DNA from: Taklimakanibacter albus
Lineage (GTDB): Bacteria; Pseudomonadota; Alphaproteobacteria; Rhizobiales; Aestuariivirgaceae
DNA: 64,000 nt
Direction: 5' to 3'
NCBI RefSeq assembly: GCF_016595235.1
Contig: NZ_JAENHL010000007.1
Span: forward strand, 2,054,043 to 2,118,042
Shown in pieces: positions 23,581-38,588 of the stretch. The notes beneath the pieces were generated by a model, which had not been told where the DNA came from, ran no database searches, and saw nothing but the letters and a program-made list of their open reading frames with translations. Each line of letters starts with the position of its first letter. The stretch's first letter is position 1. The position numbers and the translations under genes were made by a program.

Positions 23581-23703
23581 GGACGGGCTCCCTGGACGCT
23601 TCTATCTGTCGGTAAGTAGGCGATGGTCCATGAAGTGGTCTTGATCTTGCAAGCAAATTTTTCGAATAGTTGCTATCGGAAATCTCAATCGAACGGGATC
23701 GCC

Positions 23704-24564
23704 ATGAATGTCGACCAGTTGCGCAGCTTTGTCGAGGTGGTGGCGACCGGCAGTTTCAGCCTGGCCGCCAGCCGGCTGAATGTCACGCAGTCGACCGTCT
23801 CGGCGCGGATCCGGGCGCTCGAGGAACAGCTCGGCCAGCCGCTTTTCCTGCGCGGGCGCGAAGGCGCCGACCTCACCCCGGCGGGCCTCAGGCTCGAGGC
23901 CCATGCGCTGGCGATCCTGAGCTCCTGGGAACAGGCGCGCCAGGAAATCGCCCTGCCGCAAGGTTTTCAGACCATATTCCGCCTAGGCGGCCCGGCCAGC
24001 CTGTGGAGCAGCCTGCTGCGCCCCTGGCTTTCCTCGATGCGCGAGCGCGCGCCCGACGTGGCGGTGAGGCTCGAAGGCAGCCATTCCGACAATATCATCG
24101 AACGCCTGTCGGAAGGGCTGCTCGATCTGGGCGTGGTGTTCATTCCCCGCCGCAGGCCCGGTCTCCTCGTCGAGACCTTGTTCGACGAACGCCTGGTCCT
24201 TGTCTGCCACAAGGAGATCATCGACGACTGGCACAGCCATTATGTCAATCTCGATTGGGACGACGAATTGCGCTCGGCCCACCGCGAGGCCTATCCCGAT
24301 CTGCCAACGCCGGCCATCACCATCGGTCCGGCGGTCCTGGGCTTGAACTATCTTCTCGACCAGCGCGCCGCGGGCTACCTGCCCTGGAGCCTCGCCGCGC
24401 CCTGGATTGCGAGCGGCCATATCACACCGGTCGAGAACGCGCCCGAGATCCGCCGGCCGGTCTATGTGATCGCACCCGACACACACGCCCACACCGAGCT
24501 GCTCGACCTGGCGCTGCGCTGCCTGCGCTCCATCGGCAGCCTGCTGCAGGATTTTCGCGATTAG
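23704..24564 (+). CDS. LysR family transcriptional regulator
   Basis: A 286-residue regulator with the N-terminal LysR helix-turn-helix (NVDQLRSFVEVVATGSF then NVTQSTVSARIRALEEQLG, residues 2-49) and a type 2 periplasmic-binding-fold effector domain from about 90. The ATG at 23704 gives the canonical N-terminus; an earlier in-frame ATG at 23623 would add 27 atypical residues. It diverges from the peptide-type binding-protein gene and is its probable regulator. Its end overlaps the end of the convergent aquaporin gene by four bases. Confidence 0.92.
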   Translation: MNVDQLRSFVEVVATGSFSLAASRLNVTQSTVSARIRALEEQLGQPLFLRGREGADLTPAGLRLEAHALAILSSWEQARQEIALPQGFQTIFRLGGPASLWSSLLRPWLSSMRERAPDVAVRLEGSHSDNIIERLSEGLLDLGVVFIPRRRPGLLVETLFDERLVLVCHKEIIDDWHSHYVNLDWDDELRSAHREAYPDLPTPAITIGPAVLGLNYLLDQRAAGYLPWSLAAPWIASGHITPVENAPEIRRPVYVIAPDTHAHTELLDLALRCLRSIGSLLQDFRD

Positions 24565-25238
24565 CGCTCGAGGAAGCGCCAAGTCCAGCCGGCAACGAGA
24601 ATGCCGATGATGGGTCCCAATACATAAATCCAATAGAACCGCCAGTCGCCGAGAAACATGGTCGGGCCGAAGGCGCGCGCCGGATTCATCGCCGCTCCCG
24701 CAATCGGCCCCATCAGCATGACCTCGATGCCGACGACGAGGCCGATCGGCACCGCGGCGAAAGAGCGAAGCGGCGGCGCGACCGCGAAAGCGGCGCGAAT
24801 GACCAGCATCATCACGAAGGACAGGAAACATTCGATGGCGAAGGCGCCGGCGAGCGGAAGGGCCAAACCCGGATTGGGCAGATTGGCGCCCATGCCACCT
24901 TGCGCGCCGAGCGTATAATAAAGAAGAGCCGCACCCGCACAGGACCCGGCGAGCTGCGCCACGATATAGCCAGGCACCAATCGCTTGGGGAAGTCACCGA
25001 AGGCGGCGAGCCCCAGGGTCAAGGCCGGATTGAAATGCGCGCCCGAAATATCGAACAAGGCCCAGATCAGAATCATCAGCGCCAATCCTGAGGCCGAGCC
25101 GGCGATCAGCGGTCCCGGCAGATTGCCGAGCATGGTGGTGACCATGACCGCGCCCGCCGCGAAAAACACGAGAATGGCCGTGCCGAGGAATTCCGCGGCA
25201 TAGAGCCTGGCACTGCTCAAGCGATTGCCGTCCTGCAT
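24561..25238 (-). CDS. Aquaporin-family channel with non-water selectivity filter
   Basis: A 225-residue MIP-family channel with six hydrophobic segments and both pore motifs, NPA at 70-72 and NPAR at 185-188. Aligned by hand to E. coli AqpZ (filter F43, H174, T183, R189), the constriction here reads S50, V173, A182, R188. Loss of the Phe and His argues for a wider, less polar pore than a strict water channel, as in solute-conducting members. It starts two bases after the VWA gene stop, making it the last gene of the amide operon. A role in amide, urea or ammonia passage is inference. Confidence 0.88.
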   Translation of the reverse strand: MQDGNRLSSARLYAAEFLGTAILVFFAAGAVMVTTMLGNLPGPLIAGSASGLALMILIWALFDISGAHFNPALTLGLAAFGDFPKRLVPGYIVAQLAGSCAGAALLYYTLGAQGGMGANLPNPGLALPLAGAFAIECFLSFVMMLVIRAAFAVAPPLRSFAAVPIGLVVGIEVMLMGPIAGAAMNPARAFGPTMFLGDWRFYWIYVLGPIIGILVAGWTWRFLER

Positions 25239-25240
25239 GA

Positions 25241-27520
25241 TCAGATGGTGAGTCTGAAATAGAGCATCGGCAATTTTTCGGGAAGGGCCTCGACCCGATT
25301 GATCATCAGGTGGTTGCGCGGACCGAAGATGCGCGGCAGATAGTTTTCACCGCCGCCGTCGAGGCCGACACAGAAGACGTCGACACCCTGCCGGGCCAGC
25401 TCCTGCACCGCTTTGCGCGCATCCTCGACCAGATATCGCTTGTCGGCGACGTCGATATCGGCGGGCTCGCCGTCGGTGATGACGAGCACCAGCTTACGAT
25501 GCGTGGCCTGGGTCGCGATTTCCGCCCCCGCCTGGCGCAGCGCGGCGCCGAGCCTGGTCGACAGCATGCCACGCAACCCCGCCAGTCGCGCTTTCACCAC
25601 CGCCAGATTGTCCTCGGTGAAATCCTTCACCCGGTAGTAGCGCACCTCTTCGCGCCCATTCGAGCAGAAGGCATGGAGCGCGAAAGGGTCACCGAGATCG
25701 GCCATGGCCTGGGCGAGCAGCGCCGCCGCCGCCCGCTCGAGCGCGATGACGGTGGTCGTCGTGTCGCGTACCCGGTCGCGGGTCGATTCCGATATGTCGA
25801 GCAAAGCCAGCACCGAGAGATCGCGCGCCCGCATCTCCTGCGTTTCATAGAGGCGCGTGTCGGGAGGAAGGCCGGCGCGATAATCGATCATCGCCCGGAT
25901 GGCGGCATCGAGATCGAGGCGGTCGCCTTGCGGCTGGCGGCGCATCCGCACCGGCCGGCTGACCTTGGCCGCCTTCACCAGCCGGGCGATGCGGCGCTCG
26001 ACATCGGCGTGATCGGCGAGGATGGCATCGATCGCTTCGGCCGCCGCCGGTTTCGGCTTGAATTCCAGGATCGTCGTCCAGTCATGCCGCATCAGGCCGC
26101 CGACATGATCCCATTCGGAACGCCGGGCGATCGGGATGCCGGCATCCTCCGGCAGTGCCGTCAGCTTTCCGGCCCGGTTCGCCGAAACGTCGCTCGTATC
26201 ATCACGCTCGCGCCGCTCGCTCCCCTCAGGCGTCTCCTGCTCATTGAGACGCACCGCCTCGAGCAGCATCTCGGCGGTTTCCGCCTGCTCCGGCGGCGTC
26301 TCGCCGAAATCCCACAGGCCCAGATTGTCATCGCGATAGGACGGCTCGATCACATGGCTTCTGGCATTGAACTGGATGCGCATCTGGCCGATGTCATTGC
26401 CGAGCAGCCCGCCGATGCGCCGGCTGATCGCCGGATCCTCCCATTGATCACGGGCATCGCGAAACATCCGGCGCGCCTTGCTGATCCACGGATCGTCATC
26501 GACATAAGCGGGATCGATCAGCGCCCGCGCCAGGCGCATCATCAGAAGCTCGGCGGTGAGGGCCGTGCCGGGCTCGGCGACATGGAAGCGCGACCACAGC
26601 CGGCGCAGGCCCGGATATTCCTCGGCGGCCAGCGCCTCGATACGCGCATCCTCGATCAGCCCGACCAGCGCCAGCTGCACGGGCCGGAGCGAGCCGACCG
26701 GAAATTTGGCCCTTCCATACCTCAGATGCGCGCCGATATGGGCGAAGACCGCGTGATAATGGGCGGCTGCCGCCGCGCCGCGATAACCGGCATAGATCTC
26801 GGGCACGCGGATGAAGGCGCCATCGAAGGAGGCCCGCCGCATCACCCGCCCGCCCGGCCTGACGCTGGCCGCGCGGATCACCGGGCGGATCTTCCACAGG
26901 GCGATCAGGAAGGCGCGCAGCGATGCCTCGATATCGGTGAAGGCGACATCGTCCGGATCGCGCTCGAAGGCTTTGAGCGTCGCCATGTCGGTGACGGCGA
27001 AATAGAGCGCCGCCTTGGCGGCATCACCACCGCTCTGACGGATGCCGTTTGCCGCCCAGGCGCGAAAGGCGAGCACGCTGAGCCGGCCGAGCACGAAGCC
27101 CGAGGCGCGAATGATGAGGGACGCAGCGCCTGGCGCCAGCGTCGCCGCCTCCTCGACCGTCCGCAACCAGATCCGCAAGGCGGCGTTTTCCTCGAGAAGT
27201 GCGGCCACCGCCGGCAGCGTGCTGAGGAAGCGCAGAGCGGCTTCAGGTCCCGCCGCCTTGGCGATGCCGGTCGCGGTGTCGGCAGTGGCGAGCGCCAGAT
27301 CGACGCCGTGAAGCCGCGCCACCTCGACGCTACCGGTGGCGAAGGCGAAAGGCGCCGCGGGGTCGCTGATCTTCGCCGCGACCCGCTCGAAGCCGTCGAT
27401 CCACAGGTCGAAGGCAGGCCCGGGAAAGACCTCGCGCACGCTCTGCCAGGTGCGCCGGTCGATGGCCTGGGCGAAGCGGACGCTGCGCAGCAAGCCGTCT
27501 ATGAGACCGTCGTCGGTCAT
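25241..27520 (-). CDS. VWA-domain protein of the NorD/CbbO type
   Basis: A 759-residue cytoplasmic protein with a C-terminal von Willebrand A domain from about 565. The MIDAS residues are visible: DISES at 575-579, a threonine near 655 (STRLG) and D683 in VITDGEPAD. The long N-terminal part is helical and acidic around 430-450. NorD/CbbO proteins work with a MoxR-type AAA+ partner to activate or mature a target enzyme (nitric oxide reductase, Rubisco). Here the partner is encoded immediately upstream (stop 27523, start 27520) and the linked enzyme is the amidase AmiE rather than those classical targets. Confidence 0.88.
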   Translation of the reverse strand: MTDDGLIDGLLRSVRFAQAIDRRTWQSVREVFPGPAFDLWIDGFERVAAKISDPAAPFAFATGSVEVARLHGVDLALATADTATGIAKAAGPEAALRFLSTLPAVAALLEENAALRIWLRTVEEAATLAPGAASLIIRASGFVLGRLSVLAFRAWAANGIRQSGGDAAKAALYFAVTDMATLKAFERDPDDVAFTDIEASLRAFLIALWKIRPVIRAASVRPGGRVMRRASFDGAFIRVPEIYAGYRGAAAAAHYHAVFAHIGAHLRYGRAKFPVGSLRPVQLALVGLIEDARIEALAAEEYPGLRRLWSRFHVAEPGTALTAELLMMRLARALIDPAYVDDDPWISKARRMFRDARDQWEDPAISRRIGGLLGNDIGQMRIQFNARSHVIEPSYRDDNLGLWDFGETPPEQAETAEMLLEAVRLNEQETPEGSERRERDDTSDVSANRAGKLTALPEDAGIPIARRSEWDHVGGLMRHDWTTILEFKPKPAAAEAIDAILADHADVERRIARLVKAAKVSRPVRMRRQPQGDRLDLDAAIRAMIDYRAGLPPDTRLYETQEMRARDLSVLALLDISESTRDRVRDTTTTVIALERAAAALLAQAMADLGDPFALHAFCSNGREEVRYYRVKDFTEDNLAVVKARLAGLRGMLSTRLGAALRQAGAEIATQATHRKLVLVITDGEPADIDVADKRYLVEDARKAVQELARQGVDVFCVGLDGGGENYLPRIFGPRNHLMINRVEALPEKLPMLYFRLTI

Positions 27521-27522
27521 CC

Positions 27523-28335
27523 TCAGACGCAGGCGGCGATCGTTTCGGTGAGGGCGCGGCGCATATCGGGATCATCGCTGATCGGCAGCACGATCGCCAC
27601 CTCGCAAGCCTCGCGCAGCGGGATCGACCGGCTCATCAGCCGGCCGGCCTGGACCAGCATGCGGGTCGAGGCGCCTTCATCCAATCCATGTCCCTTCAGA
27701 TTGCGGGTGCGTCCGGCGATCCGCACCAGCACGGCGGCGTCCTCATGCGCGATCCCTGATTCATGGGCGACGATCTCGGTTTCGATCGACGCTTCGGGAT
27801 AGGAAAAGTCGAGCGCCGCGAAACGCTGCTTGGTCGATTCCTTCAGATCCTTGATGACGCTCTGATAACCGGGATTGTAGGAGATCACGATCTGGAAGTC
27901 GGGATGCGCCCGGACCAGCTCGTTCTTCTTCTCGAGCGGCAGGATGCGACGGTCATCGGTCAAGGGATGGATGACGACGGTGGTATCCTGGCGCGCCTCG
28001 ACGATCTCGTCGAGATAGCAGATGGCGCCGTGGCGAACACTGAGTGTCAGCGGGCCGTCATGCCAGACGGTGCCTTCGGCATCGAGAAGGAAACGCCCGA
28101 CCAGATCCGACGCCGTCATGTCCTCATGGCAGGCGACCGTGATCAGCGGCTTGCCGAGCCGCCAGGCCATATGCTCGATGAAACGTGTCTTGCCGCAGCC
28201 CGTCGGCCCCTTCAGCATCATCGGCAGGCGCGCCGCATAGGCCGCTTCGAACAGCGCCACCTCATTGCCGACGGGATGATAATAAGGCTGTCCGGTGAGG
28301 AGATAATTGCTCAGATCCATGACTACGACATCCAT
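27523..28335 (-). CDS. MoxR-family AAA+ ATPase of the NorQ/CbbQ type
   Basis: A 270-residue ATPase. Walker A is GPTGCGKT at 43-50 and Walker B ICYLDE at 105-110; [19 protein letters not shown] supplies the sensor and arginine-rich segment. Length and motifs match CbbQ/NorQ. An alternative ATG is at 28320; neither has a strong ribosome site. It forms an operon pair with the VWA gene downstream. The P. aeruginosa amidase operon also contains an ATPase gene (amiB) beside amiE, so a chaperone-like ATPase in an amidase locus has precedent; the VWA partner is the unusual part. Confidence 0.9.
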
Positions 28336-28343
28336 TCAGGCAT

Positions 28344-28375
28344 GACCGGAGAGTGGCCCCGACCACTCTCCGGTC
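28344..28375. terminator. Perfect 13-bp hairpin between amiE and the MoxR gene
   Basis: The arms GACCGGAGAGTGG (28344-28356) and CCACTCTCCGGTC (28363-28375) pair perfectly around a six-base loop. On the minus strand no run of T follows, so it is not a canonical intrinsic terminator. It more likely stabilises or delimits the 3' end of the amidase message and lowers expression of the ATPase, VWA and channel genes. Confidence 0.65.
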
Positions 28376-28387
28376 CCCGGCTCTTAC

Positions 28388-29428
28388 TCAACGATGGGCG
28401 CGCGTCTTCGGATTCGGAATGCCCTCGATCGGCGACTCCTCGGTGCCGACGGTCGAACGGGTGATGGCCTCCACCATCTCGCGCGTGCCTTCCGGATCGG
28501 TGATCCACTTCTTGTAGAAATCATAGGGGCAGCTGGCGACGCCCTGCGCCCCCTCGCCCGAATTGATCATGCCGGTATAGCCGCGATGCACCAGCTTGAA
28601 GAGATGGTTGTTGGACTGGCTGTTCTTGCGCGCGTCGCGAATGAGCATCTTCGACAGCTGGGCATATTGGATGCCCATCTCCTCTTCGCCGCATTCGCCG
28701 AGCGTGCGACCGTCGAAACCGATGATCGCCGAATGGCCGAAATAGGAGTAGACGCCGTCGAAGCCGGTAGCGTTCGAAACCGCCACATAGCTGTTATTGG
28801 CCCAGGCCATCGCCTTGGCCATCAGCACCTGCTGGTCCTTGGCCGGATACATATAGCCCTGGCAGCGCACGATGAGCTCGGCGCCCTTCATCGCGCAGTC
28901 ACGCCAGATTTCCGGGTAATTGCCGTCATCGCAGATGATCAGGCTCACCTTGAGGCCCTTGGGGCCCTCCGACACATAGGTGCAATTGCCGGGATACCAG
29001 CCTTCGATCGGCACCCAGGGCATGATCTTGCGGTATTTCTGCACGATCTCGCCCTTGTCATTCATCAGGATGAGCGTGTTGTAGGGCGCCTTGTTGGGAT
29101 GCTCCTCATGGCGTTCGCCGGTGAGCGAGAACACGCCCCAGACCTTGGCCTTGCGGCAGGCAGCCGCGAAGATCTCGGTCTCCTCGCCCGGGATCTGCGA
29201 GGCGGTCTCATACATCTCCTTCTGATCATACATGATGCCGTGGGTGCTGTATTCCGGGAAGATCACCAGATCCATGCCGGGCAGGCCCACTTTCATGCCG
29301 ACCAGCATCTCGGCGATCTTGCGGGCATTGTCGAGCACCTCCTTCTTGGTATGGAGGCGCGGCATCTTGTAGTTGACCACCGCAACGCCGACCGTGTCGT
29401 TGCTGCTACCGATATCGCCATGAATCAT
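28388..29428 (-). CDS. amiE: Aliphatic amidase AmiE
   Basis: A 346-residue nitrilase-superfamily amidase that hydrolyses short-chain aliphatic amides to carboxylate and ammonia in the cytoplasm. It is the same length as P. aeruginosa AmiE and nearly collinear with it from memory, including [18 protein letters not shown] and [18 protein letters not shown]. The catalytic residues are E59 (FPEYS), K134 (YRKIMPW) and C166 ([10 protein letters not shown]). I start at the ATG at 29428 (MIHGDIG) with ribosome site GGGAG; an upstream in-frame start at 29464 would add 12 residues. It lies between the transporter genes and the MoxR gene. Confidence 0.96.
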
Positions 29429-29474
29429 GTTCGTCTCCCAGATGGTTGCCTGATCATTGCGCACCGACGCATGG

Positions 29475-30173
29475 TCACACCGCCATGTGCTTGTGCATGA
29501 GATTGTCCGTCAGGTTCTTGACGGGACCCTCCGCCACGACGCGGCCCTTCTCCATGATTACGAAGGAGTCGGAGGCGCGCCGTGCGAATTCGATATCCTG
29601 CTCGACCAGGATGATGGTGATGCCATGCGCCTTGTTGAGCTTGATGATCGCTTCCTCGATCTGCTCGACGATGTTGGGCTGGATGCCCTCGGTCGGCTCG
29701 TCGAGCAGGATGATCTTAGGGTTTGTCAGAAGCGCCCGGCCGATCGCCAGCTGCTGTTGCTGGCCGCCGGAAAGATTGCCGCCCTGCCGGTCGAGAAACT
29801 CGCCGAGCACGGGGAATATCTCGAAGACGAGATCGTCATAGGAATGCTTGTCGCCGCCGGAACGCGCGAAGGTGCCGAGCTTCAGATTCTCCCGCACCGT
29901 GAAGGTCGGGATGATGCCGCGGCCCTGCGGCACATACCCGAGGCCCGCATGGGCGCGCTTGAAGGTCGGCAGCGGGTCGAGGCGTTTACCCGACAGCGCG
30001 ATCTCCCCGCCGCAGCGGTCCATGAGGCCGAGGATCGCCTTGAACAGAGTGGTCTTGCCCACCCCGTTGCGACCCAGAACGGCCAGGAATTTGCCCGTTT
30101 CGAGCGTGAGATTGACGCCCTGAAGGGCGCGCGAATTGCCGTAATAGGCTTCGAGATTCTTGAGCTCAAGCAC
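29475..30173 (-). CDS. HAAT-type ABC transporter ATPase (UrtE/LivF-like)
   Basis: A 232-residue ATP-binding subunit with Walker [10 protein letters not shown] at about 34-42, signature [15 protein letters not shown] and Walker [16 protein letters not shown], the last typical of the LivF/UrtE branch. It overlaps the other ATPase gene by eight bases and sits 46 bases before amiE. Together the five genes make a complete importer. Linkage to amiC, amiR and amiE makes short-chain amides or urea the likely cargo, as in the FmdDEF system of Methylophilus. Confidence 0.92.
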
Positions 30174-30918
30174 CGCTGATCCCCACCGATCCCAGATAGA
30201 CCTGTTTGACTTTCGGATTGTTCTCGATCTCGGCGACCGGGCCTTCGGCGAGGAGCTTGCCCTGATGCATCACCGAGATGATGTCGCCGATCGCCTTGAC
30301 GAATCCCATATCGTGCTCGACCACGATGATCGTGTGTTTGCCCTTGAGGCGGTTGCAGATATCGGCGGTCTTCTGCGTCTCCTGCACCGTCATGCCGGCG
30401 GTCGGCTCATCGAGCAGGATGAGCTCGGCGTCCTGGGCGAGCAACAGCGCGATCTCGAGCCATTGCGTCTGGCCATGCGAAAGATGCGCCGCCGGCACGT
30501 TGAGCTGATCGCTGAGCCCCACGAATTCCGCGAGCTTGTCGAGGCCGTCGCTGTCGGCCGAATGCGCCCAGCGCAGCAGATTGGCGAGGACGCCATTGCG
30601 CTTGCAATAGGCGACTTCGAGATTCTCGCGCACGGTGAGCTGGCGGAAGACGCTCGGCACCTGGAATTTGCGCCCGACGCCTGAGCGCGCGATCTGATAG
30701 TCGTCATGCCGGCCGAGCTCGATGCCCTTGAAGCGGATCGAGCCGCCGCTCGGCACCGTTTTGCCGCAGATGAGGTCGAGGGCGGTGGTCTTGCCGGCGC
30801 CGTTCGGCCCGATGAGACAGCGCAACTCCCCCTTCTCCACCTTGAGCGACAGGCCGTTCACCGCCTTGAAGCCGTTGAAGCTGGCGCTGACATCGCTGAG
30901 TTCGAGATGCGCGGTCAT
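30166..30918 (-). CDS. HAAT-type ABC transporter ATPase (UrtD/LivG-like)
   Basis: A 250-residue ATP-binding subunit. Walker A is GPNGAGKTT at about 37-45, followed by GKTVPSGGSIRFKG and the LivG-type VGRKFQVPSVF segment; the signature is reduced to LSHGQTQWLEIALLL, the form usual in UrtD proteins, before Walker B LILLDEPTAGMT. Its start overlaps the permease stop (ATGA) and its end overlaps the next ATPase, so the transporter genes are tightly coupled. Confidence 0.92.
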   Translation of the reverse strand: MTAHLELSDVSASFNGFKAVNGLSLKVEKGELRCLIGPNGAGKTTALDLICGKTVPSGGSIRFKGIELGRHDDYQIARSGVGRKFQVPSVFRQLTVRENLEVAYCKRNGVLANLLRWAHSADSDGLDKLAEFVGLSDQLNVPAAHLSHGQTQWLEIALLLAQDAELILLDEPTAGMTVQETQKTADICNRLKGKHTIIVVEHDMGFVKAIGDIISVMHQGKLLAEGPVAEIENNPKVKQVYLGSVGISGA

Positions 30919-32042
30919 TTGCCCTCGGCGAGTTTGGTGGAGCGGGCGATGGAATTGCCGCGCTTGGCCGGTTCGGGCGTGGCGCGGCGGCCGCCGAACT
31001 TCTCGGTGAGTTTTTCGCCGAGGCTCGCTATGCCATTGGGCAGGAACAGCACCACCAGCACGAAAAGCGCGCCCATGACGAGCGTCCAGGTGTCGAGGAA
31101 GACCTCGGATTCAGAGAGCGCGCCCTGCATGCCGGCGACGAGAATGGCGCCGAGCAGCGCGCCGACCAGGCTTTGCCGGCCACCGACCGCGCACCAGATG
31201 ACGATCGACAGGCTGAGCTGCACGCCGAGAAAGGTCGGCGAGGCGAATTCCATGACGATCGTGTAGAGCATGCCGGCGAGACCGGCGATGCCGGCCGAGA
31301 TGCAGAACACCATGGTCTTGAACAGCGCCACGTCGTAACCGAAGAAGCGCACGCGGTCTTCCTGGTCGCGGATCGCCTGCAGGATGAGCCCGGCCTTGCT
31401 CTTGGTGACGGCAAGCGCCAGGAACAGGCACACCGTCAGACAGATAGCGATGAGATAATAGGTCGTCGCGCTATAGGCATCGAAGGTGATGCCGAAGAGC
31501 TCGAGCTGGGCGAGATCGGTGATGCCGTTGAAACCGCCCGTCGCCCATTGCTGGTCGATGATGACGAGATTGACGACTACCAGAGTGGCGAGCGTGATGA
31601 TCGCCACATAGACTCCGGTGACCCTGCCGCGGAACATGAACCAGGCGAGGATCGCCGAGACGATCATCGGTCCTATGATGCCCGCCGCGATGGCGAAGGG
31701 CATGGAATAGAACGGCTTCCAGAACCACGGCAGCGCCTCGACATTGTTCCACACCATGAAGTCGGGCAGCCCTTCCGAGCCGGTATGGACGGGAATGGTG
31801 CGCAGCTTGAGCGCCATCGCCATGCAATAGGAGCCGAGCCCGAAGCTCATCGCCTGGCCGAGATTGAGGATGCCGGCATAACCCCAGGACAGTGCCAGTG
31901 CCATCGACACCATGGCCAGCACCAGATAGCGGGCGAAGCGGTTGAGCAGGAAATCGTCGTTGATCAGCATCGGCAGGAGGAAGATGGCGAGGCACACCGC
32001 GCCATAGACGAAGACCTGCCTCATGGTGCGCTTCGACATCAT
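30915..32042 (-). CDS. HAAT-type ABC transporter permease (UrtC/LivM-like)
   Basis: A 375-residue inner-membrane subunit with eight to ten hydrophobic segments and the family stretch LSWGYAGILNLGQAMSFGLGSY at about 49-70. The long loop at about 90-130 and AVGGRQSLVGALLGAILV near 290 fit UrtC. I start at the ATG at 32042, which overlaps the TGA of the UrtB-like gene; upstream open sequence is antiphase. It forms the permease pair with the gene upstream. Confidence 0.92.
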   Translation of the reverse strand: MMSKRTMRQVFVYGAVCLAIFLLPMLINDDFLLNRFARYLVLAMVSMALALSWGYAGILNLGQAMSFGLGSYCMAMALKLRTIPVHTGSEGLPDFMVWNNVEALPWFWKPFYSMPFAIAAGIIGPMIVSAILAWFMFRGRVTGVYVAIITLATLVVVNLVIIDQQWATGGFNGITDLAQLELFGITFDAYSATTYYLIAICLTVCLFLALAVTKSKAGLILQAIRDQEDRVRFFGYDVALFKTMVFCISAGIAGLAGMLYTIVMEFASPTFLGVQLSLSIVIWCAVGGRQSLVGALLGAILVAGMQGALSESEVFLDTWTLVMGALFVLVVLFLPNGIASLGEKLTEKFGGRRATPEPAKRGNSIARSTKLAEGK

Positions 32043-32908
32043 GTGCGCACCCTTGTGACGAAGAGGCCCTGCGGCCTGAAGCGGATGAGAATGACGATAC
32101 CGACCAGCACCAGCGCCTTGGCGACGGTGTCGTTCTGCCAATATGCGAGCACGCCTGAGAGCTGGCCGAGAAGCACCGAGCTCGCCACCGTGCCGAACAG
32201 GCTCTGGACGCCGCCCAGCACCACGACGAAGAAGGCATCGACCACATAGCCGGTGCCCATTTCCGGTGACACGCTCTTGAGCGGCGCCACCAGCGCGCCG
32301 GCGAGGCCGGCAAGCCCCGCCCCATAGGCGAAGGTGCCGGTATAGATCGTGCTCGCATTGATGCCGAAGGCGGTGGCGATGCTGCGGTCCTGGACCACGG
32401 CGCGCAATTGCATGCCGACCGTCGTCTTGTTGACGAGCATCCAGGTCGCGGCGAAGAGGGCGGCGCCTGCGATGATGATGAAGACACGATAGGCCGAGAC
32501 GTCGACGCCGAAGATGTCGACAGTGGCGGCGAGGCTCGGCGGCATCTCGACATAACGCAATTCGCCGCCGGCGGTGAGCCGCACCAGCTGCTGCAGCATG
32601 ACGCCGATCCCCCAGGTGGCGAGGATGGTGTCGATCGGCCGGCGATAGAGATAGCGGATGACGCCGCGCTCGATGAGGGCGCCGAGGAGCGCCGTGGCGA
32701 TGAAAATGATGATGAGGCTCGGAAACAGGCTGATGCCGGCATAGGCTTTGAGCGCCCAGGCACCATAGGCGCCGAGCATGATGAACTCGCCATGCGCCAT
32801 GTTGATGACGCCCATCGAGCCATAGATGATCGACAGGCCGAGGGCGACGATGAGCAGGATCGAGCCGATGCTCAGGCCGGTGATGAATTGTTCGAACAGA
32901 AATTCCAT
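32039..32908 (-). CDS. HAAT-type ABC transporter permease (UrtB/LivH-like)
   Basis: A 289-residue inner-membrane subunit. The N-terminus (FEQFITGLSIGSILLIVALGLSIIYGSMGVINMAHGEF) is the classic LivH/UrtB signature, and the C-terminal VVLGGVQSLFGTVASSVLLG matches the same family. It follows the binding-protein gene after 62 bases that contain a strong hairpin. It is coupled by ATGA to the second permease. Confidence 0.93.
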   Translation of the reverse strand: MEFLFEQFITGLSIGSILLIVALGLSIIYGSMGVINMAHGEFIMLGAYGAWALKAYAGISLFPSLIIIFIATALLGALIERGVIRYLYRRPIDTILATWGIGVMLQQLVRLTAGGELRYVEMPPSLAATVDIFGVDVSAYRVFIIIAGAALFAATWMLVNKTTVGMQLRAVVQDRSIATAFGINASTIYTGTFAYGAGLAGLAGALVAPLKSVSPEMGTGYVVDAFFVVVLGGVQSLFGTVASSVLLGQLSGVLAYWQNDTVAKALVLVGIVILIRFRPQGLFVTRVRT

Positions 32909-32933
32909 GACCGAAAGCTCACAAGGCTAGAAA

Positions 32934-32960
32934 GCCGCGGCGGTACAAAGCCGCCGCGGC
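32934..32960. promoter_or_regulatory. Hairpin between binding-protein and permease genes
   Basis: A perfect ten-base stem (GCCGCGGCGG at 32934-32943, CCGCCGCGGC at 32951-32960) with a seven-base loop lies in the 62-base gap downstream of the amide binding-protein gene. No T tract follows on the minus strand. In ABC operons such hairpins commonly protect the 3' end of the abundant binding-protein message; that role is inferred. Confidence 0.65.
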
Positions 32961-32970
32961 CGGATGAGTC

Positions 32971-34218
32971 TCAGGCTTCCTTCAAGCCCGTCTCGGTGCA
33001 TTTCTGGTTCGGATAGGCGGCATAAGGATCGGGCGCCTTCCATTCGGCCGAATCCTTCAGCACCTCGAACTGGCCGTCAGATTTCGCGACGGCGATCTTC
33101 GGCCACAGCCAGGTGTGGAGATTCTCCTTGTCGAGATGGATCTTGCCTTGCGGGGCCACATATTCCTGCCCCTTGATCGCCTCGCGGATGCCGTCCGGCG
33201 TGATGTCGCTTTGGGCCAGCTTCTCGACTGCCTGCTTGAACAGATACATCTGGAAATAGCAGGCTTCCGAAACGAAATGCGTGACCTTGTCGTCGCCCCA
33301 GCGCTTCTTGTAGGCGGCGACGAATTTCTCGTTCTCGGGCGACTTGTGCACCATGAAATAGGGCGCCGAGGTGAAATGGCCGGCCGCGGCATCGCCGCCC
33401 ATCGCCGCCACTTCGTTTTCGGATGTGGTGAGGCTCGCCATCGGCATCTTGGCCGGATCGAGGCCGGCGGCGCGATATTGCCGATGCAGCGCCACCACCG
33501 AATCGCCCACCACCGTCGAGAAGATCACATTGGGTGCGGTGCTCTTGATCTTGTTGATCACCGAGGAGAACTCGGAATGGCCGAGCGGCACATATTCCTC
33601 GTTCACCACTTCGCCGCCGAGCTTCTCGAGCAGCTTCTTGCAGTAGTTGTTCTCCTCCTTCGGATAGATGTAGTTCGAGCCGATGAGGAAGAACTTCTTG
33701 CCGAACTTTTCGACCAGCCAGGGCACGAACTCGTCCTGCTGCTGGTTGGGCACGGCGCCCGTATAGATCACGTTCTTCGAGCATTCGCGGCCCTCATAGA
33801 GGGTCGGGTAGAAATAGAGATTGTTGCGCTTCTCGACCACCGGCAGCACCGCTTTGCGGCTGGCCGACGTGTAGGAGCCGAAGACGCTGACGCATTTGTC
33901 GCCAACGACGAGCTTGCGCGCTTTCTCCGCGAAGGTGGCGGGATCGGAGGCCGGGTCTTCGACGACCGCATTGATCTGCATGCCGTTGATGCCGCCGGCC
34001 GCGTTGATCTCCTCGATCGCCATGATCGTCGCCTTGTTCAGCGACTCCTCGATGATCGCCGTCGTGCCGGTGAGCGAGAACAGCACGCCGACCTTGATTT
34101 CACCGCCGGCGGCGCGCGCCAGCGAATAGTCCTTGATCCAGATATGTGGGAATCCGCCCAATAAACCTGCGCCGAGCGCAGCCGTTCCCGTCAGGAACGA
34201 TCTTCTCCTGATAGCCAT
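32971..34218 (-). CDS. HAAT-type ABC substrate-binding protein (UrtA/FmdD-like)
   Basis: A 415-residue exported binding protein of the urea/short-chain amide group. The N-terminus has a twin-arginine-like signal (AIRRRSFLTGTAALG). The mature part shows VGVLFSLTGTTAIIEESL and SASRKAVLPVVEKRNNLYFYPTLYEG, both shared with AmiC and UrtA. I start at the ATG at 34218, which has the strong ribosome site GGAGGAAACG; the open frame begins at 34275 inside the leader terminator. It is the first gene after the amiR leader. Confidence 0.93.
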   Translation of the reverse strand: MAIRRRSFLTGTAALGAGLLGGFPHIWIKDYSLARAAGGEIKVGVLFSLTGTTAIIEESLNKATIMAIEEINAAGGINGMQINAVVEDPASDPATFAEKARKLVVGDKCVSVFGSYTSASRKAVLPVVEKRNNLYFYPTLYEGRECSKNVIYTGAVPNQQQDEFVPWLVEKFGKKFFLIGSNYIYPKEENNYCKKLLEKLGGEVVNEEYVPLGHSEFSSVINKIKSTAPNVIFSTVVGDSVVALHRQYRAAGLDPAKMPMASLTTSENEVAAMGGDAAAGHFTSAPYFMVHKSPENEKFVAAYKKRWGDDKVTHFVSEACYFQMYLFKQAVEKLAQSDITPDGIREAIKGQEYVAPQGKIHLDKENLHTWLWPKIAVAKSDGQFEVLKDSAEWKAPDPYAAYPNQKCTETGLKEA

Positions 34219-34239
34219 CGTTTCCTCCATGACAACAAC

Positions 34240-34282
34240 AAAAAACCCCCAAGTTGACCTGGACCGGTCAATCATGAGGGCG
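34240..34282 (-). terminator. Leader intrinsic terminator between amiR and the amide binding-protein gene
   Basis: On the minus strand the arms GCCCUC and UUGACC pair with GGUCAA and GGGGGU around a GGUCCA loop and a four-base internal mismatch, followed directly by six T residues (34245-34240). This is a complete intrinsic terminator placed upstream of the structural genes and downstream of the gene for the AmiR antiterminator. It ends only about 20 bases before the binding-protein start codon. Confidence 0.78.
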
Positions 34283-34300
34283 TTACTGCCTGATTATGTG

Positions 34301-34334
34301 AGCGGCGCTTTTGCCGCTGTCCGCATTTTTGCGG
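34301..34334 (-). promoter_or_regulatory. Tandem hexaloop hairpins, candidate ANTAR (AmiR) RNA target
   Basis: Reading the minus strand, CCGC-AAAAAU-GCGG (34334-34321) is followed two bases later by AGCGGC-AAAAGC-GCCGCU (34318-34301). Known ANTAR targets are pairs of hexanucleotide-loop hairpins with A at loop position 1 and G at position 4. Both loops here have A1; neither has a clean G4 (the second has G at position 5). The position just upstream of the leader terminator is right. The match is incomplete, so this remains a candidate. Confidence 0.5.
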
Positions 34335-34346
34335 GGTGCGCGTTTC

Positions 34347-34928
34347 TTATACGAGGCTGTCGGAAGTGTCAACGAGTTTGGACGCGAGCGACGCGACAGT
34401 GACGCGTTTCTTCATCGCCATATCGCGCAGTACACGGAAGGCTTCCGTTTCATTGATGCGATTGCGCCGCATGATCAGCTGCTTCGCCTTCTCAATATCG
34501 CGCATGGCGCGCGCATTCTCTTCCATGCGCGCGATGCGCGTCTTCTGGCGCCGGAAGAAGGCGAACTGGTCGAAGGCGAGCAGCATCGCTGCATCGATGA
34601 GATGCGGCTGATAGGGCCGGCTCAGCACCGCATTGGGGCAGGCCACATGCAGCTCGTGGTAATCGAGGCGCACATTCTGCGGCAGCAGGACGATGAGCGC
34701 CGCCTCCGCCTCGCCCGGCATCCAGGCGAGCCGGTTGCCGAGGCCCGGCCCATATTCGCAGAACAGTACATCGGCATTTTCGCCGATACGGTCGGGCGCC
34801 GGCCATTGATGCCGGACCTGCGCGCGGCTGCGCTGGAGGTGGCGCAGAAGCGACTGGCCGTCCTCATCGGGCTCGCAGACGACCAGCAGGCGCAGGCGCG
34901 AGAACTGGGCCAGGGGATTGATCGCCAT
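34347..34928 (-). CDS. amiR: AmiR-like ANTAR transcription antiterminator
   Basis: A 193-residue RNA-binding regulator. Residues about 10-120 form a degenerate response-regulator fold (RLRLLVVCEPDEDG), a helix at about 120-140 is likely coiled coil (RRQKTRIARMEENARAMRDIEKAKQ), and the C-terminal ANTAR segment is about 133-185 (NRINETEAFRVLRDMAMKK). Length and layout match P. aeruginosa AmiR. It starts three bases after the amiC stop. In the known system AmiC holds AmiR inactive until amide binds, then AmiR prevents leader termination. Confidence 0.93.
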   Translation of the reverse strand: MAINPLAQFSRLRLLVVCEPDEDGQSLLRHLQRSRAQVRHQWPAPDRIGENADVLFCEYGPGLGNRLAWMPGEAEAALIVLLPQNVRLDYHELHVACPNAVLSRPYQPHLIDAAMLLAFDQFAFFRRQKTRIARMEENARAMRDIEKAKQLIMRRNRINETEAFRVLRDMAMKKRVTVASLASKLVDTSDSLV

Positions 34929-34931
34929 GGC

Positions 34932-36080
34932 TCAGGCGCTTTCCGCCAACCGATAGGGGCTGATGAGATAGGGATCGGCGTCGATCTGCGACAGCGACTG
35001 ATGCATGATGGCGAAGTGTCCGGCCCGGTTGACGCGCCCGACGCGCGACCAGACATTGGCATGGCTGCAGGCCGGATTGATCGACACGGTGCCCTGCGGC
35101 GCATCGATGGTCGAGCCGAGCACCAAAGGCCGCAATATGTCGGTGTCGAGCGTGTTCACCTGCGCCAGCGCCTTGGCCAGGAGATGCACCTGAAAATAGG
35201 CCGCTTCCACGCACATATTCGTGTTTTCGCTGTCGCCGTAGCGCTTGCGGTAGCGCTGGACGAAGGCCTCTTCCTTGGACCCGCCGATGCCCTGGAAATA
35301 AGGCGCGGCGGTGATGTGGTGCTCACCGACATCGGCGCCCATCGCCTGGATCTCGGCCTCGGTGGTGGTGAGGCTGGCGATCGGCAGCTTCTTGGCGTCG
35401 AGGCCGAAATCGTTGAAGGCCTGATAGAGAAACACGGTCGCCTCGCCGACCACCGTCGAGAAGATGACGTCCGGGCTGGCGGTCCGGATGTCGCGCATGA
35501 TCGGATAGAACTCCTCGCGCCGGGCATTGAGCGACACATACATCTCGCCGACCACCTCGCCGCCCGACTGATTGACGAGGGCGCGCATGATGCGGTTCGA
35601 TTCGCGCGGATAGACATAGTCGGAACCGACGAAATAGAAACGCGTGCCGTAATTCTGGGCGAGATAGGTGAACAGCGTCAGGCTGTTCTGGTTGGGCGCG
35701 GCGCCCGTATAGATGATGTTGGGCGAGAATTCGAAGCCTTCATAGAGGGTCGGATACCACAGGAGGCCGTTGAGGCGCTCGACGATCGGCAGCACCGCCT
35801 TGCGGCTCGACGACGTGTAGCAGCCGAAGATGGTGCGGATGCCGTCCTCGGCCAGCATCTTGCGCGTATAGGCGCGGAACTGCGCATTGTCGGAGCCCGG
35901 ATCGAAGACGGCGGGGACGAGTTCGCGGCCATTGATGCCGCCGGCCTCGTTGATCTCGTCGATCGCCAGCATCGTGCCGCGATACTGCGTCTCTTCGATG
36001 AGCGCCATATAGCCGGTGCGCGAAAACAATACGCCCACCCGCCAGGGCTCCGACGTCTGCTCTCGTCCAATGCCAGGCAT
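34932..36080 (-). CDS. amiC: AmiC-like cytoplasmic amide sensor
   Basis: A 382-residue periplasmic-binding-protein fold with no signal peptide, as expected for AmiC, the amide-responsive partner of AmiR (P. aeruginosa AmiC is similar in length). Motifs include VGVLFSRTGYMALIEETQYRG and YTSSSRKAVLPIVERLNGLLWYPTLYEG. It is clearly paralogous to the exported binding protein at 32971-34218. Being first in the locus, it and amiR probably share a constitutive promoter upstream of the controlled leader. Confidence 0.92.
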   Translation of the reverse strand: MPGIGREQTSEPWRVGVLFSRTGYMALIEETQYRGTMLAIDEINEAGGINGRELVPAVFDPGSDNAQFRAYTRKMLAEDGIRTIFGCYTSSSRKAVLPIVERLNGLLWYPTLYEGFEFSPNIIYTGAAPNQNSLTLFTYLAQNYGTRFYFVGSDYVYPRESNRIMRALVNQSGGEVVGEMYVSLNARREEFYPIMRDIRTASPDVIFSTVVGEATVFLYQAFNDFGLDAKKLPIASLTTTEAEIQAMGADVGEHHITAAPYFQGIGGSKEEAFVQRYRKRYGDSENTNMCVEAAYFQVHLLAKALAQVNTLDTDILRPLVLGSTIDAPQGTVSINPACSHANVWSRVGRVNRAGHFAIMHQSLSQIDADPYLISPYRLAESA

Positions 36081-36551
36081 GTTCCAAAGCCTCAGCGCAT
36101 ATCCGGAAAATAGCGAGGGAGCATGCTCGCTTTGACCGATCCGATCAACACTTCATTTTTGCGGCGGCGAAAATCCAGTTCGCGGGCACAGGAAAGTGTG
36201 TCTGATGCGCTGCGATGATCGCGGTCATCGACCGCCGCATTCACGACCTTGGCGTACAATGCCGGAGGGAATCACGACGCGCGCGGAGACGCGAAATATT
36301 GATCAGGGCACTGATGATTTTCACCTGCTCCGGAGCGTCGCGGAGACGAGATCGGCAACGAGCCGGGAGAGGGGTCCCCCGAATCGCCATTTCGTAAAAT
36401 TTTAGTTACTTTTCATATATTTACCGCTTCCCCGACCAGATGTACCTAACGCTTGCCTAACCCGTTCATCTGCATTTAGCTTACCCAGGTCACGATCACT
36501 TAGGGTTAATTCCGGCCCGGACGGCCCGTGACCGGTTAGTGCAGGTGCGGC
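36081..36551. other. Intergenic region between divergent amiC and membrane protein genes
   Basis: This 471-base region must hold the amiC promoter (minus strand) and that of the gene at 36552. A short AT-rich stretch lies at 36397-36425, and a small hairpin (AGCGAG/CTCGCT, 36112-36131) lies just upstream of amiC. I see no convincing sigma-70 or sigma-54 hexamers, no tRNA and no supported small ORF. Confidence 0.5.
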
Positions 36552-38588
36552 ATGACGACTGCAGCGGCCATTTCTTTTGCCGGGGCCCTTCTCGGCATTG
36601 CGGTATTCTCCCGAGTTCCGATCTGGGCGCTGAAGGCCTGGAAGGAGATGAGCTTGCGGCGGCTCCTGGCCGCCCATCTCCTCACTTATGCTGTCGCCGT
36701 CATCGTCTCGGCCTTCGCCCTCGCCCATGGCGGCGCACCGCAGTGGCAGGTGGCCTTGGCCAGCTTTGTCGTGCCGTCCGCCCTGGTCTTCGCGCTCGAT
36801 GCGCTCGGCATCTACTTTAAGATGAGGGATGGCACGCGGCCCATCGCCTGGTTTACCCATGTCGGCGGCAAACGGAACGGGCCGATGGCGACGGAAGCCG
36901 TCACCGCGGCATTGGCCGACAATTCGCTCAAGCCGACCGACTGGATCTGGCGGGTGGGCTTCAAGGAATGGCAGCAAGTCCAGACGGTCGATGTCGCCGC
37001 CGCGGCGGAGCCTCCGCCTGCTCCCGTCGAACCTAAAACACCGTATCTTCTGCGCCACTGGAAGGGCGTGCTGTCGCTGCCGAAGAGCTTCTGGCTGAGC
37101 GGCCTCGTGATCGCCTTTCTGTTCGGCGTCCTCTATTTCTCCCTCATGCGACTCGACATCGCCGACTATCCGATCCTGGTGAGCGTCGGGGTGATCGGCC
37201 TGTGGCTGGCGCTGCTCGCCGCCATGGTGTGGTTCGCCGTCGGCGTCGTCCGCGCCGCCGAGCGTTATGAAGCCGAACATCCGAAACGCATCTGGAGCAT
37301 CGCCGCAAAAGGGGCGACGGTCATCGCGGCGCTCTCCGTGCTCGCCATCTTCGCCAGGCTCGGCGTGCCGCAGATCCAGCATTTCGCCGACGCCATCTTC
37401 GAGACCACGGAGCCGCGCTACACGGTGGCGCTGCTGCGCGACGACACCGAGCTCAACGTCACCGGCCCGATGGATCTGGGCCTGTCGGAAACGGTCGATG
37501 AGGTCCTGCATGATCATCCGGCGATCGCGACCATCTATCTGAACAGCCCGGAAGGCCGCCCCGCCGAAGCTGACAGGCTGAGCGAGATCATCCTCGCCAA
37601 TAATCTCAACACCTATGTCTCGGCCGTCTGCGCCGGGCCCTGCGTCAAGGCCTTCGCCGCCGGCAAGAGCCGCTGGCTGTCGCGCGACGCGGTCCTGGCC
37701 CTTGGTCGTCCCGAATCCGGCGCGCAGGACTCCGCCGAAGCGCAACCTCATATCGCCAAGCTGCGCAGCTTCCTCCGCGGCCGCGGCGTCGAAGCGGACT
37801 TCATCGAGCGCGCTTTGGCGGTGACGGAGAAAAATGCCTGGCGGCCGAGCCATGCCGAGCTCTTCGCGTCGGGTCTCGTGACCTCTTATGCGACCGACGC
37901 CGATGTGGCGCAGGCCGGCATTCCGCTGCAGGAGATCGACGACGCCGAAAAGGCCCTCGACCAGGTCGCCCTTTATCGGACCTTGCGCGAAAAGCATCCG
38001 AAAGCGCGCGAGGAGATCTTCGCCATCCTGCGCCAAGGCACGGTCAAAGGCGAAGCCGCCGCTGAGATGCGCCGGCGCATGTGGGCGATCATCACGCCGA
38101 TCGTGGCGCAGAGCATATCTTCCGCGTCCGACGCGGCACTCACCTCCTTCTACCAGATCGCGGCGGAAGAGGCCGAAGCTCTGGCGGCGAAGGACGCCAA
38201 GGCCTGCGAGGCCTATCTCAAGGGTGAGACGGGCGGTTTCGATCCGGCTCTGCTGCCCGCGTCCCTGCAGGAGCGCGAGCTCGCCGCCACGGCGGAGGTG
38301 ATCCGCACCAGCGGCAGCTATGCCGGCCAGCCGGTCGATCAGAAAGATGTCGAGGCTCCGTTGATGCAGCTCCTGCTCGCAGCCACGGCGGATGGCTTCA
38401 CGGCGGCCGAGTTCCGCAATGCGATCGAGTTCAAGCTCGATGCGGCGCGCAACTGCAAAGGCACGATCCTGTTCCTCAAGTCGCTGCAGGGTCTGAATGA
38501 ACCCGGGCGCTCGGCTCTCCTGCGCTTCGTCGCCCAGCGAACCGCCGCGCTGCAGAGACTGAGCAGGCAGATGATTTCCGGCGGTTGA
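36552..38588 (+). CDS. Membrane protein with GYF_2-like domain and ClpP-like (COG3904-type) domain
   Basis: A 678-residue protein. Two to three membrane segments occupy residues 5-90, a GYF_2-like domain about 98-143 (WFTHVGGKRNGPM then DWIWRVGFKEWQQV), more membrane segments about 180-200, 207-232 and 252-270, then a ClpP-like periplasmic domain about 288-390 (YLNSPEGRPAEADRLSEII, YVSAVCAGPCVKAFAAGKSRW) and a helical tail. Where active relatives have serine in C-x-S-A-C, this protein has C360-A-G-P-C364, so the nucleophile is missing. Function unknown. It stands alone, 32 bases before an MDR gene. Confidence 0.8.
   Translation: MTTAAAISFAGALLGIAVFSRVPIWALKAWKEMSLRRLLAAHLLTYAVAVIVSAFALAHGGAPQWQVALASFVVPSALVFALDALGIYFKMRDGTRPIAWFTHVGGKRNGPMATEAVTAALADNSLKPTDWIWRVGFKEWQQVQTVDVAAAAEPPPAPVEPKTPYLLRHWKGVLSLPKSFWLSGLVIAFLFGVLYFSLMRLDIADYPILVSVGVIGLWLALLAAMVWFAVGVVRAAERYEAEHPKRIWSIAAKGATVIAALSVLAIFARLGVPQIQHFADAIFETTEPRYTVALLRDDTELNVTGPMDLGLSETVDEVLHDHPAIATIYLNSPEGRPAEADRLSEIILANNLNTYVSAVCAGPCVKAFAAGKSRWLSRDAVLALGRPESGAQDSAEAQPHIAKLRSFLRGRGVEADFIERALAVTEKNAWRPSHAELFASGLVTSYATDADVAQAGIPLQEIDDAEKALDQVALYRTLREKHPKAREEIFAILRQGTVKGEAAAEMRRRMWAIITPIVAQSISSASDAALTSFYQIAAEEAEALAAKDAKACEAYLKGETGGFDPALLPASLQERELAATAEVIRTSGSYAGQPVDQKDVEAPLMQLLLAATADGFTAAEFRNAIEFKLDAARNCKGTILFLKSLQGLNEPGRSALLRFVAQRTAALQRLSRQMISGG

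Follow-up and report, generated by a model that had tools for sequence, protein, structure and literature searches.

Gene content of the operon

We analyzed a 64,000-nucleotide stretch of the Taklimakanibacter albus genome (contig NZ_JAENHL010000007.1, positions 2,054,043 to 2,118,042), referred to below as the window, which carries an amide operon on its minus strand. This operon encodes the aliphatic amidase AmiE together with a MoxR-type AAA+ ATPase and a VWA-domain protein, and our subject is the relation of AmiE to this MoxR-VWA pair and the short C-terminal tag by which the amidase may be recognized. All eleven open reading frames (ORFs) that an earlier note had placed at 24561-36080 were confirmed at the claimed positions, each name being backed by Pfam or NCBIfam models: amiC, amiR, a five-gene urt-type importer, amiE, the genes of a CbbQ-type MoxR ATPase and of the VWA protein, and a MIP channel gene. 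ORFs and family models thus confirm eleven consecutive genes with mostly overlapping or near-contiguous boundaries. With the preferred starts the junctions show a spacing of 2-62 nt or an overlap of 4-8 nt, the sole exception being a gap of 116 nt between amiR and the binding-protein gene (71 nt if the listed start at 34275 is used instead). Gene order and families also uphold the proposal of a single co-directional operon for amide uptake and hydrolysis with AmiC-AmiR and a urt-type importer.

The amiE gene lies at 28388-29464 (all features of the operon are on the minus strand) and is identified by NF009802 (719.6 bits, cut-off 427) and by PDB entry 2plq (E 4e-197); translation probably begins at the internal ATG of codon 13 (29428). 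The last two codons, at 28391-28396, give the tail His-Arg, which reads as the HK/R motif of CbbQO clients known from Rubisco. Downstream lie the gene of the putative motor, a CbbQ-type MoxR AAA+ ATPase (27523-28335; AAA_5 and CbbQ_C; PDB 5c3c, 'CbbQ/NirQ/NorQ domain protein', E 1.5e-120), and that of the putative adaptor, a CbbO-type VWA protein of 759 residues (25241-27520; C-terminal VWA domain; PDB NorD 9qhd, E 1.1e-41), in which the DxSxS motif is present. An AlphaFold model of AmiE from the single sequence had a mean pLDDT of 39.5 and was not used.

Linkage of amiE to MoxR and VWA genes

To place the operon in context, amiE neighbourhoods were collected from genomes sampled at the level of order, phylum, class and family, with some overlap between the samples, and from plasmids, of which 23 stretches with AmiE were taken and 64 records match at E <= 1e-120. 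The usable set, which includes the AmiE gene of the window, comprises 114 genes that are complete and have flanks, and it is not a random sample, plasmid loci L120, L122, L123 and L124 having been reached through VWA matches. Left out were L054 (contig end), L116 (frame-broken AmiE), L118 and L119 (AmiE 53 and 52% identical, below the 60% cut; both unlinked and untagged), L059-L063 (no AmiE) and a second, 34% match in L140. We call a locus linked if MoxR and/or VWA lies within 11 kb of amiE.

We found 66 of the 114 loci to be linked, 55 of them with both MoxR and VWA. A search of 190 genomes of the class with the window VWA gave matches at E <= 1e-40 in 3, its own genome counted, and such a frequency of linkage is therefore not chance. 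The earlier note had set conservation of the linkage as a test of its proposal; run here for MoxR and VWA, the test leaves the proposal standing. Named linked cases come from Alpha- and Betaproteobacteria and Acidithiobacillus, and at 22 of the 114 loci, all linked, amiC and the importer are present as well. The aquaporin that the earlier note counted into the locus is indeed there in the window as a MIP gene but is a rare companion, found near amiE in 3 of the 66 linked loci, and the window and its near twin L058 account for two of these. The latter, from 'Rhizobiales bacterium Y(2018)', has all eleven genes, and it alone has AmiE among the six loci found by a scan of genome contigs with the VWA protein. 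The pattern search for AmiE in viral contigs gave no match.

Some neighbours are worth recording. An acetate-CoA ligase gene lies 3' of the VWA gene on a Rhizobium etli plasmid (L120:10972-12921) and a Shinella plasmid (L176:13226-15181), as expected if acetamide is a substrate. Urease clusters directly adjoin the MoxR-VWA pair of the amidase locus on Ancylobacter and Shinella sumterensis plasmids (L123:10806-15893 and L171:13278-19031).

A C-terminal tag on linked AmiE

The first hint of a tag was that AmiE alignments ran to the last residue only at loci with MoxR or VWA nearby. The penultimate residue is histidine in all 66 linked AmiE, followed by arginine (53), lysine (10) or alanine (3), and the tag occurs in 2 of the 48 unlinked AmiE. 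In the first set of 73 loci, 40 of 40 linked AmiE had the H-R/K/A tail compared to 2 of 33 unlinked (38 of 40 and 2 of 33 for H[RK] only); the HA ending was admitted to the motif after two -THA tails had appeared and before the later sets. With the motif fixed beforehand, the 41 later rows gave the tag in 26 of 26 linked and 0 of 15 unlinked AmiE. The 24 genome rows among them were gathered after the motif was fixed and gave 18 of 18 and 0 of 6, some of these later genomes being of the same genera as the first set; the 17 plasmid rows were not blind, as the ends of their AmiE alignments had already been seen. Among the other mechanically called ORFs of at least 300 codons at the surveyed loci, 19 of 1192 end in the tag. 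A scan of the AmiE columns (92 sequences below 95% identity) found the penultimate residue to be the most informative on linkage, at 0.794 of 0.978 bits.

The tag is encoded by 23 codon/stop combinations, and MoxR in the 66 linked loci lies directly downstream (32), elsewhere on the same strand (14) or on the opposite strand (10), or was not found in the stretch (10). Because both the codons and the place and strand of MoxR vary, the tag is a feature of the protein, and a cause at the level of DNA, such as a ribosome site or an overlap with moxR, is ruled out. So is AmiC as the true correlate, since the tag is there in all 31 of the linked loci that lack amiC. From the GIP motif to the end of AmiE there are 6-10 residues including the tag; the spacer varies in length and the tag is always terminal. 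When acidic residues were considered as contacts of the metal ion-dependent adhesion site (MIDAS) of the VWA protein, E325 (window numbering) alone stood out, with D/E in 96% of linked AmiE compared to 55% of unlinked.

Several unlinked AmiE end in -NY (L042-L044, L065, L068-L070 and L076, of the large genus g37 of the order, and that of Agrobacterium plasmid L172). This ending is perhaps another type of AmiE tail; the Agrobacterium-plasmid AmiE sits apart on the AmiE tree.

Kinship with the Rubisco activase CbbQO

The same tail has a documented function in Rubisco. Tsai et al. (2015) reported that Rubisco large subunits have a C-terminal HK/R motif where cbbQ and cbbO accompany them, and that other large subunits lack it (PMC4660213). 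Activation was abolished by loss of one or two terminal residues or by one added alanine, while the last residue could be replaced and the histidine only partly so (PMC4660213). According to a 2021 paper, the motif is missing from carboxysomal Rubiscos that have no cbbQ/cbbO, and activase specificity is determined by the last three residues (PMC8718961); a review describes the motif likewise (PMC5437159). An invariant histidine followed by a variable last residue is the pattern common to AmiE and Rubisco. In the loci we examined, three Rubisco large subunits near cbbQ end GVHK, VAHK and VQHR, and among eight Rubisco loci (one being the G885 locus discussed below) six large subunits end AHK or SHK.

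The earlier note had labelled the pair norQ/norD-like. The window MoxR shares 70-71% identity with four CbbQ encoded at Rubisco or carboxysome loci and 53-60% with four NorQ, and in trees of 28 MoxR and 28 VWA rows the amidase and Rubisco pairs group together against four NorQD pairs (support 98/92 and 100/100). In both trees the amidase rows do not form one clade inside the CbbQO group. The tree placement, the untagged tails of NorB or NorB-like proteins beside NorQ/NorD-type genes (0 of 4 tagged) and a neighbour gene that is amiE and not nor together rule out membership in NorQD. The MIDAS motif DxSxS occurs in 84 of 85 VWA ORFs, whether linked to an amidase or not, and is missing only from a 243-residue Acidithiobacillus fragment. 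The window pair is a relative of CbbQO and not CbbQO itself, because its neighbour is AmiE and the window's own genome gave no match to Rubisco (PF00016).

Possible motor sharing and further clients

At six loci (L096, L121, L136, L137, L138 and L140) amiE is followed by a VWA gene with no MoxR. Five of them lie in searchable genomes, all five of which have a CbbQ-like MoxR elsewhere and a Rubisco, the two within 1 kb of each other in four; in G1086 (93% complete) only one CbbQ-like MoxR reaches E <= 1e-60. Most simply read, the amidase VWA adaptor in such genomes may borrow the Rubisco motor CbbQ. On an Acidithiobacillus caldus megaplasmid (L121:10150-11940) amiE is followed by a VWA-type gene annotated as two pieces, with transposase genes on both sides and MoxR not beside the amiE-VWA genes.

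On a Shinella sp. WSC3-e plasmid (NZ_OZ000536.1, L181:6655-9879) a CbbQ-type MoxR-VWA pair lies beside phosphonate/phosphite genes and is preceded by a 111-residue protein that ends AHA and has no Pfam match. Its ending makes this protein a possible further client.

Regulatory and transport genes of the operon

The amiC gene (34932-36080) encodes a UrtA/AmiC-type binding protein (Peripla_BP_5, 4.1e-135), predicted to be the amide-sensing negative regulator; its best PDB match is AmiC 1pea (E 1.4e-88), and no signal peptide was seen at its start. It is followed by amiR (34347-34928; AmiR_N and ANTAR), a predicted ANTAR antiterminator, and the window thus holds the protein pair of AmiC-AmiR antitermination. 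Between amiR and the importer, at the place where one would look for a leader under AmiR control, lies a leader (34240-34334) with hairpins H0 (34334-34321), H1 (34318-34301) and H2 (34290-34279) and a terminator-like stem ending in U6 (34245-34240). H2 overlaps this stem with its U-run, and the leader folds with a z of -2.87. A strict pattern of two hairpins and a T-run is found in 9 of 26 leaders downstream of AmiR, compared to 0.06 expected by shuffling, and in the window H0 and H1 comply with it. ANTAR targets have loops with A at position 1 and G at position 4 (PMC3369931). The loops of the window leader (AAAAAT, AAAAGC and AGTAAC) all have the A; none has the G, a point against the mechanism proposed below, and an Rfam scan of 34000-36600 gave no match reaching the gathering score. 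Control of this leader by AmiR is likely.

The importer begins with the binding-protein gene (32971-34275, likely start 34230 or 34218; Peripla_BP_5), whose product is UrtA-like but falls under the urea cut-off (TIGR03407, 424 compared to 493 bits); judged by family, its ligand is probably an amide or urea. The remaining subunits each pass the cut-off of an NCBIfam urea-transporter model: the urtB-type permease (32039-32908; TIGR03409), the urtC-type permease (30915-32042 with ATG at 32042; TIGR03408, searched from 32048), and the ATP-binding proteins of urtD type (30166-30918; TIGR03411) and urtE type (29475-30173; TIGR03410). At the other end of the operon, the MIP channel (24561-25238; PF00230) has the residues S-V-A-R at what we take to be the selectivity-filter positions. 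All four MIPs found near amiE, of which two are near twins, have the same four residues, and such a filter would be wide and compatible with small amides, which is not proof of their passage.

Beyond the MIP gene, the segment 19863-24564 has minus-strand ORFs that resemble, by eye, two permeases and the binding protein of a peptide-type ABC importer, and then a plus-strand ORF that by eye is LysR-like (23623-24564) and shares 4 nt with the end of the MIP gene. Elsewhere in the genome are two more sets of AmiC-AmiR with a urt-type importer, L009 (G000:C7:62000-81000) and L010 (G000:C7:1626000-1645000); the L010 set includes a 28% amidase-like gene, and the L009 set has no AmiE, MoxR or VWA match.

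Another ATPase at some amiE loci

The earlier note took the ATPase to be AmiB with an added VWA partner. AmiB relatives are Clp/Hsp100-type ATPases (AAA_2 and ClpB_D2-small), whereas the ATPase of the window is a CbbQ-type MoxR, and the two types never occur at the same amiE locus: AmiB lies within 6 kb of amiE at 15 of the 114 loci and MoxR/VWA at 66, with an overlap of 0. The window has no AmiB-like match within 6 kb of amiE. Nor was AmiS found by Pfam among the eleven operon proteins; genes beyond these were not scanned. At the AmiB loci AmiE has E-K/R within its last 12 residues in 15 of 15 cases, compared to 3 of 66 linked and 3 of 33 remaining AmiE, although two changes on the AmiE tree suffice to account for these rows. 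That an E-K/R tail with AmiB is a second AAA+ solution is suggestive only.

Proposed mechanism and alternatives

The best explanation of these results, all of them comparative, and one to which we assign a probability of about 0.7, is that the operon scavenges amides, is inducible and brings its own machine for enzyme repair, an activase of the CbbQO family that would have AmiE as its client. AmiC would sense an amide, and AmiR would then let transcription through the terminator ahead of the importer gene. Short amides would enter by the urt-type importer, perhaps also by the MIP channel, and be split by AmiE to ammonia and acid; sensing, import and hydrolysis are all read from the families of the proteins. 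The VWA adaptor would recognize the C-terminal His-Arg/Lys tail of AmiE, and the MoxR ring would remodel the amidase by ATP hydrolysis; we infer this direct binding and remodelling from linkage and tag.

The most tentative part is the purpose, which could be the clearing of a dead-end state of the active site such as a carbamoyl-cysteine formed from urea or cyanate. Urea inhibits formamidases of the same superfamily as AmiE (PMC10781810), and a 2019 title cited there names a cysteine carbamoyl-switch as the cause of formamidase inhibition. A stuck cysteine adduct would fit because of this inhibition of related enzymes, and the context includes an importer that resembles a urea importer and the urease genes beside the pair on two plasmids.

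An alternative explanation is that MoxR-VWA helps AmiE to fold or oligomerize once after its synthesis, through the same tail, and repairs nothing. The tag data fit this equally well, NorQD is a maturation factor (PMC9976466), and assembly or activation is what the authors of PMC13209695 propose. We nevertheless regard an assembly factor as unlikely, given the kinship with CbbQO, which is known to release inhibitors, and the existence of closely related AmiE without the pair. Moreover, nitrilase superfamily enzymes such as AmiE have, to our knowledge, no metal centre that would have to be loaded.

C-terminal tails are classic handles for AAA+ unfoldases, and the alternative partner AmiB is Clp/Hsp100-like. 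It is therefore conceivable that the AmiE tail serves to have the enzyme inactivated or handed to a protease, and not rescued. We know of no delivery to proteases by CbbQO-type rings. CbbQ pore-loop mutants still activate (PMC4660213), and controlled removal of AmiE appears decidedly improbable.

Tagged AmiE and MoxR-VWA might also have travelled together as an old operon without any contact. The labels do cluster on the AmiE tree, many branches of which are weakly supported (20 of 111 starred), and Fisher's tests on tag and linkage ignore ancestry. On a tree of AmiE built without the last 25 residues there are 11 changes of linkage, and among 11 independent pairs the tag goes with linkage in 10 or 11, with none the other way. 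Tail and linkage switch together inside close groups, as in Methylobacterium L082 compared to L174, Azospirillum L170 and L178 compared to L125, and Rhizobiaceae L120 compared to L172. Since the same tag is also of proven function in Rubisco (PMC4660213), we consider shared ancestry alone very improbable. We find it hardly credible that the importer or the MIP channel is the target of MoxR-VWA, for although these share the operon and its tight junctions, UrtB is absent within 9.5 kb at 22 of the 66 linked loci (with about 9 kb covered on both sides in 18 of the 22), the MIP gene is as rare as described above and the sequence signal sits on AmiE.

Several observations weigh against AmiE as the client of a repair machine. 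Well-supported branches give only 4 independent pairs, of which 3 or 4 agree and none opposes (sign test p 0.125-0.25). L113 and L114, of one genus, are tagged yet unlinked, in genomes that have Rubisco and CbbQ/VWA genes with the VWA not beside amiE; conversely, G922 has a CbbQ-like MoxR, VWA and Rubisco and an untagged AmiE. Two of the eight Rubisco large subunits lack the motif, and 48 of the 114 AmiE have no MoxR or VWA nearby, so the machine is not required by the AmiE fold as such. An amidase VWA elsewhere in the genome does not explain the tagged unlinked cases, as in G885, a genome with such an AmiE, both MoxR-VWA pairs adjoin Rubisco genes. Our guess is that the AmiE of L113 and L114 may be served by CbbQO itself, although G922 speaks against this. 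In G1004, where AmiE ends VHG, genome searches for MoxR, VWA and Rubisco were all without a match.

It is common to regard Rubisco activases as something special to carbon fixation. Should AmiE indeed be repaired by a machine of this class, AAA+ rescue of stuck active sites would be more general, the clients of MoxR-VWA pairs could be predicted from C-terminal residues, and the ATPase genes of amidase operons would gain a testable job. We put at even odds the wider hypothesis that CbbQO-type machines repair enzymes in general and know their clients by a portable C-terminal H-K/R tag, acquired independently by Rubisco and amidase, that autotrophs plug an amidase VWA into CbbQ, and that further clients can be found by the tag.

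Comparison with known systems

The amide operon of Pseudomonas aeruginosa is amiEBCRS. This operon and the amiE-amiB loci (Klebsiella L165, Rhodococcus L164) resemble the window in joining AmiE to an AAA+ ATPase, with AmiC/AmiR in some. They differ in that their ATPase is Clp/Hsp100-like and their AmiE tails have E-K/R within the last 12 residues in place of the final H-K/R.

The earlier note knew of no description of this combination of genes, and here it has to be corrected: ten of the eleven genes are found in R. etli 8C-3 and all eleven in L058, and overlapping operons have been reported (PMC13209695). Plasmid pRsp8C3a of R. etli 8C-3 (NZ_CP017242.1, 313658-326661) has the order amiC-amiR-SBP-urtBCDE-amiE-cbbQ-VWA and an AmiE ending VHR; it carries acs where the window has the MIP gene, and its public annotation makes no functional claim. 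The 2026 paper describes amiE, amiC and amiR with CbbQ/NorQ-like and NorD-like genes on a plasmid of Pseudomonas veronii Yu15, and amiE-amiC-amiR with an importer in Klebsiella, and suggests that the two extra proteins could serve amidase assembly or activation (PMC13209695). The part considered here names no importer or MIP gene for the Yu15 operon and mentions neither a C-terminal tag nor kinship with CbbQO. Among the matches listed by our search of open-licence papers, it is the only one that joins amiE to MoxR-VWA genes, and none links an amidase to CbbQO or to the HK/R tag.

NorQ/NorD share with the window pair a MoxR ring and a VWA protein with MIDAS (PMC9976466, PMC13036017); they form a separate branch, have untagged NorB neighbours and serve in metal insertion. 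The closest likeness is to the CbbQO Rubisco activase, in which the genes of a CbbQ-type MoxR and a VWA adaptor likewise lie beside that of a client ending in HK/R. The client in the window would be an aliphatic amidase, which belongs to the nitrilase superfamily and has no relation to Rubisco, and amidase tails can also end in alanine (3 of 66). What is new here is thus a CbbQO-type machine with what appears to be a new class of client, an amidase.

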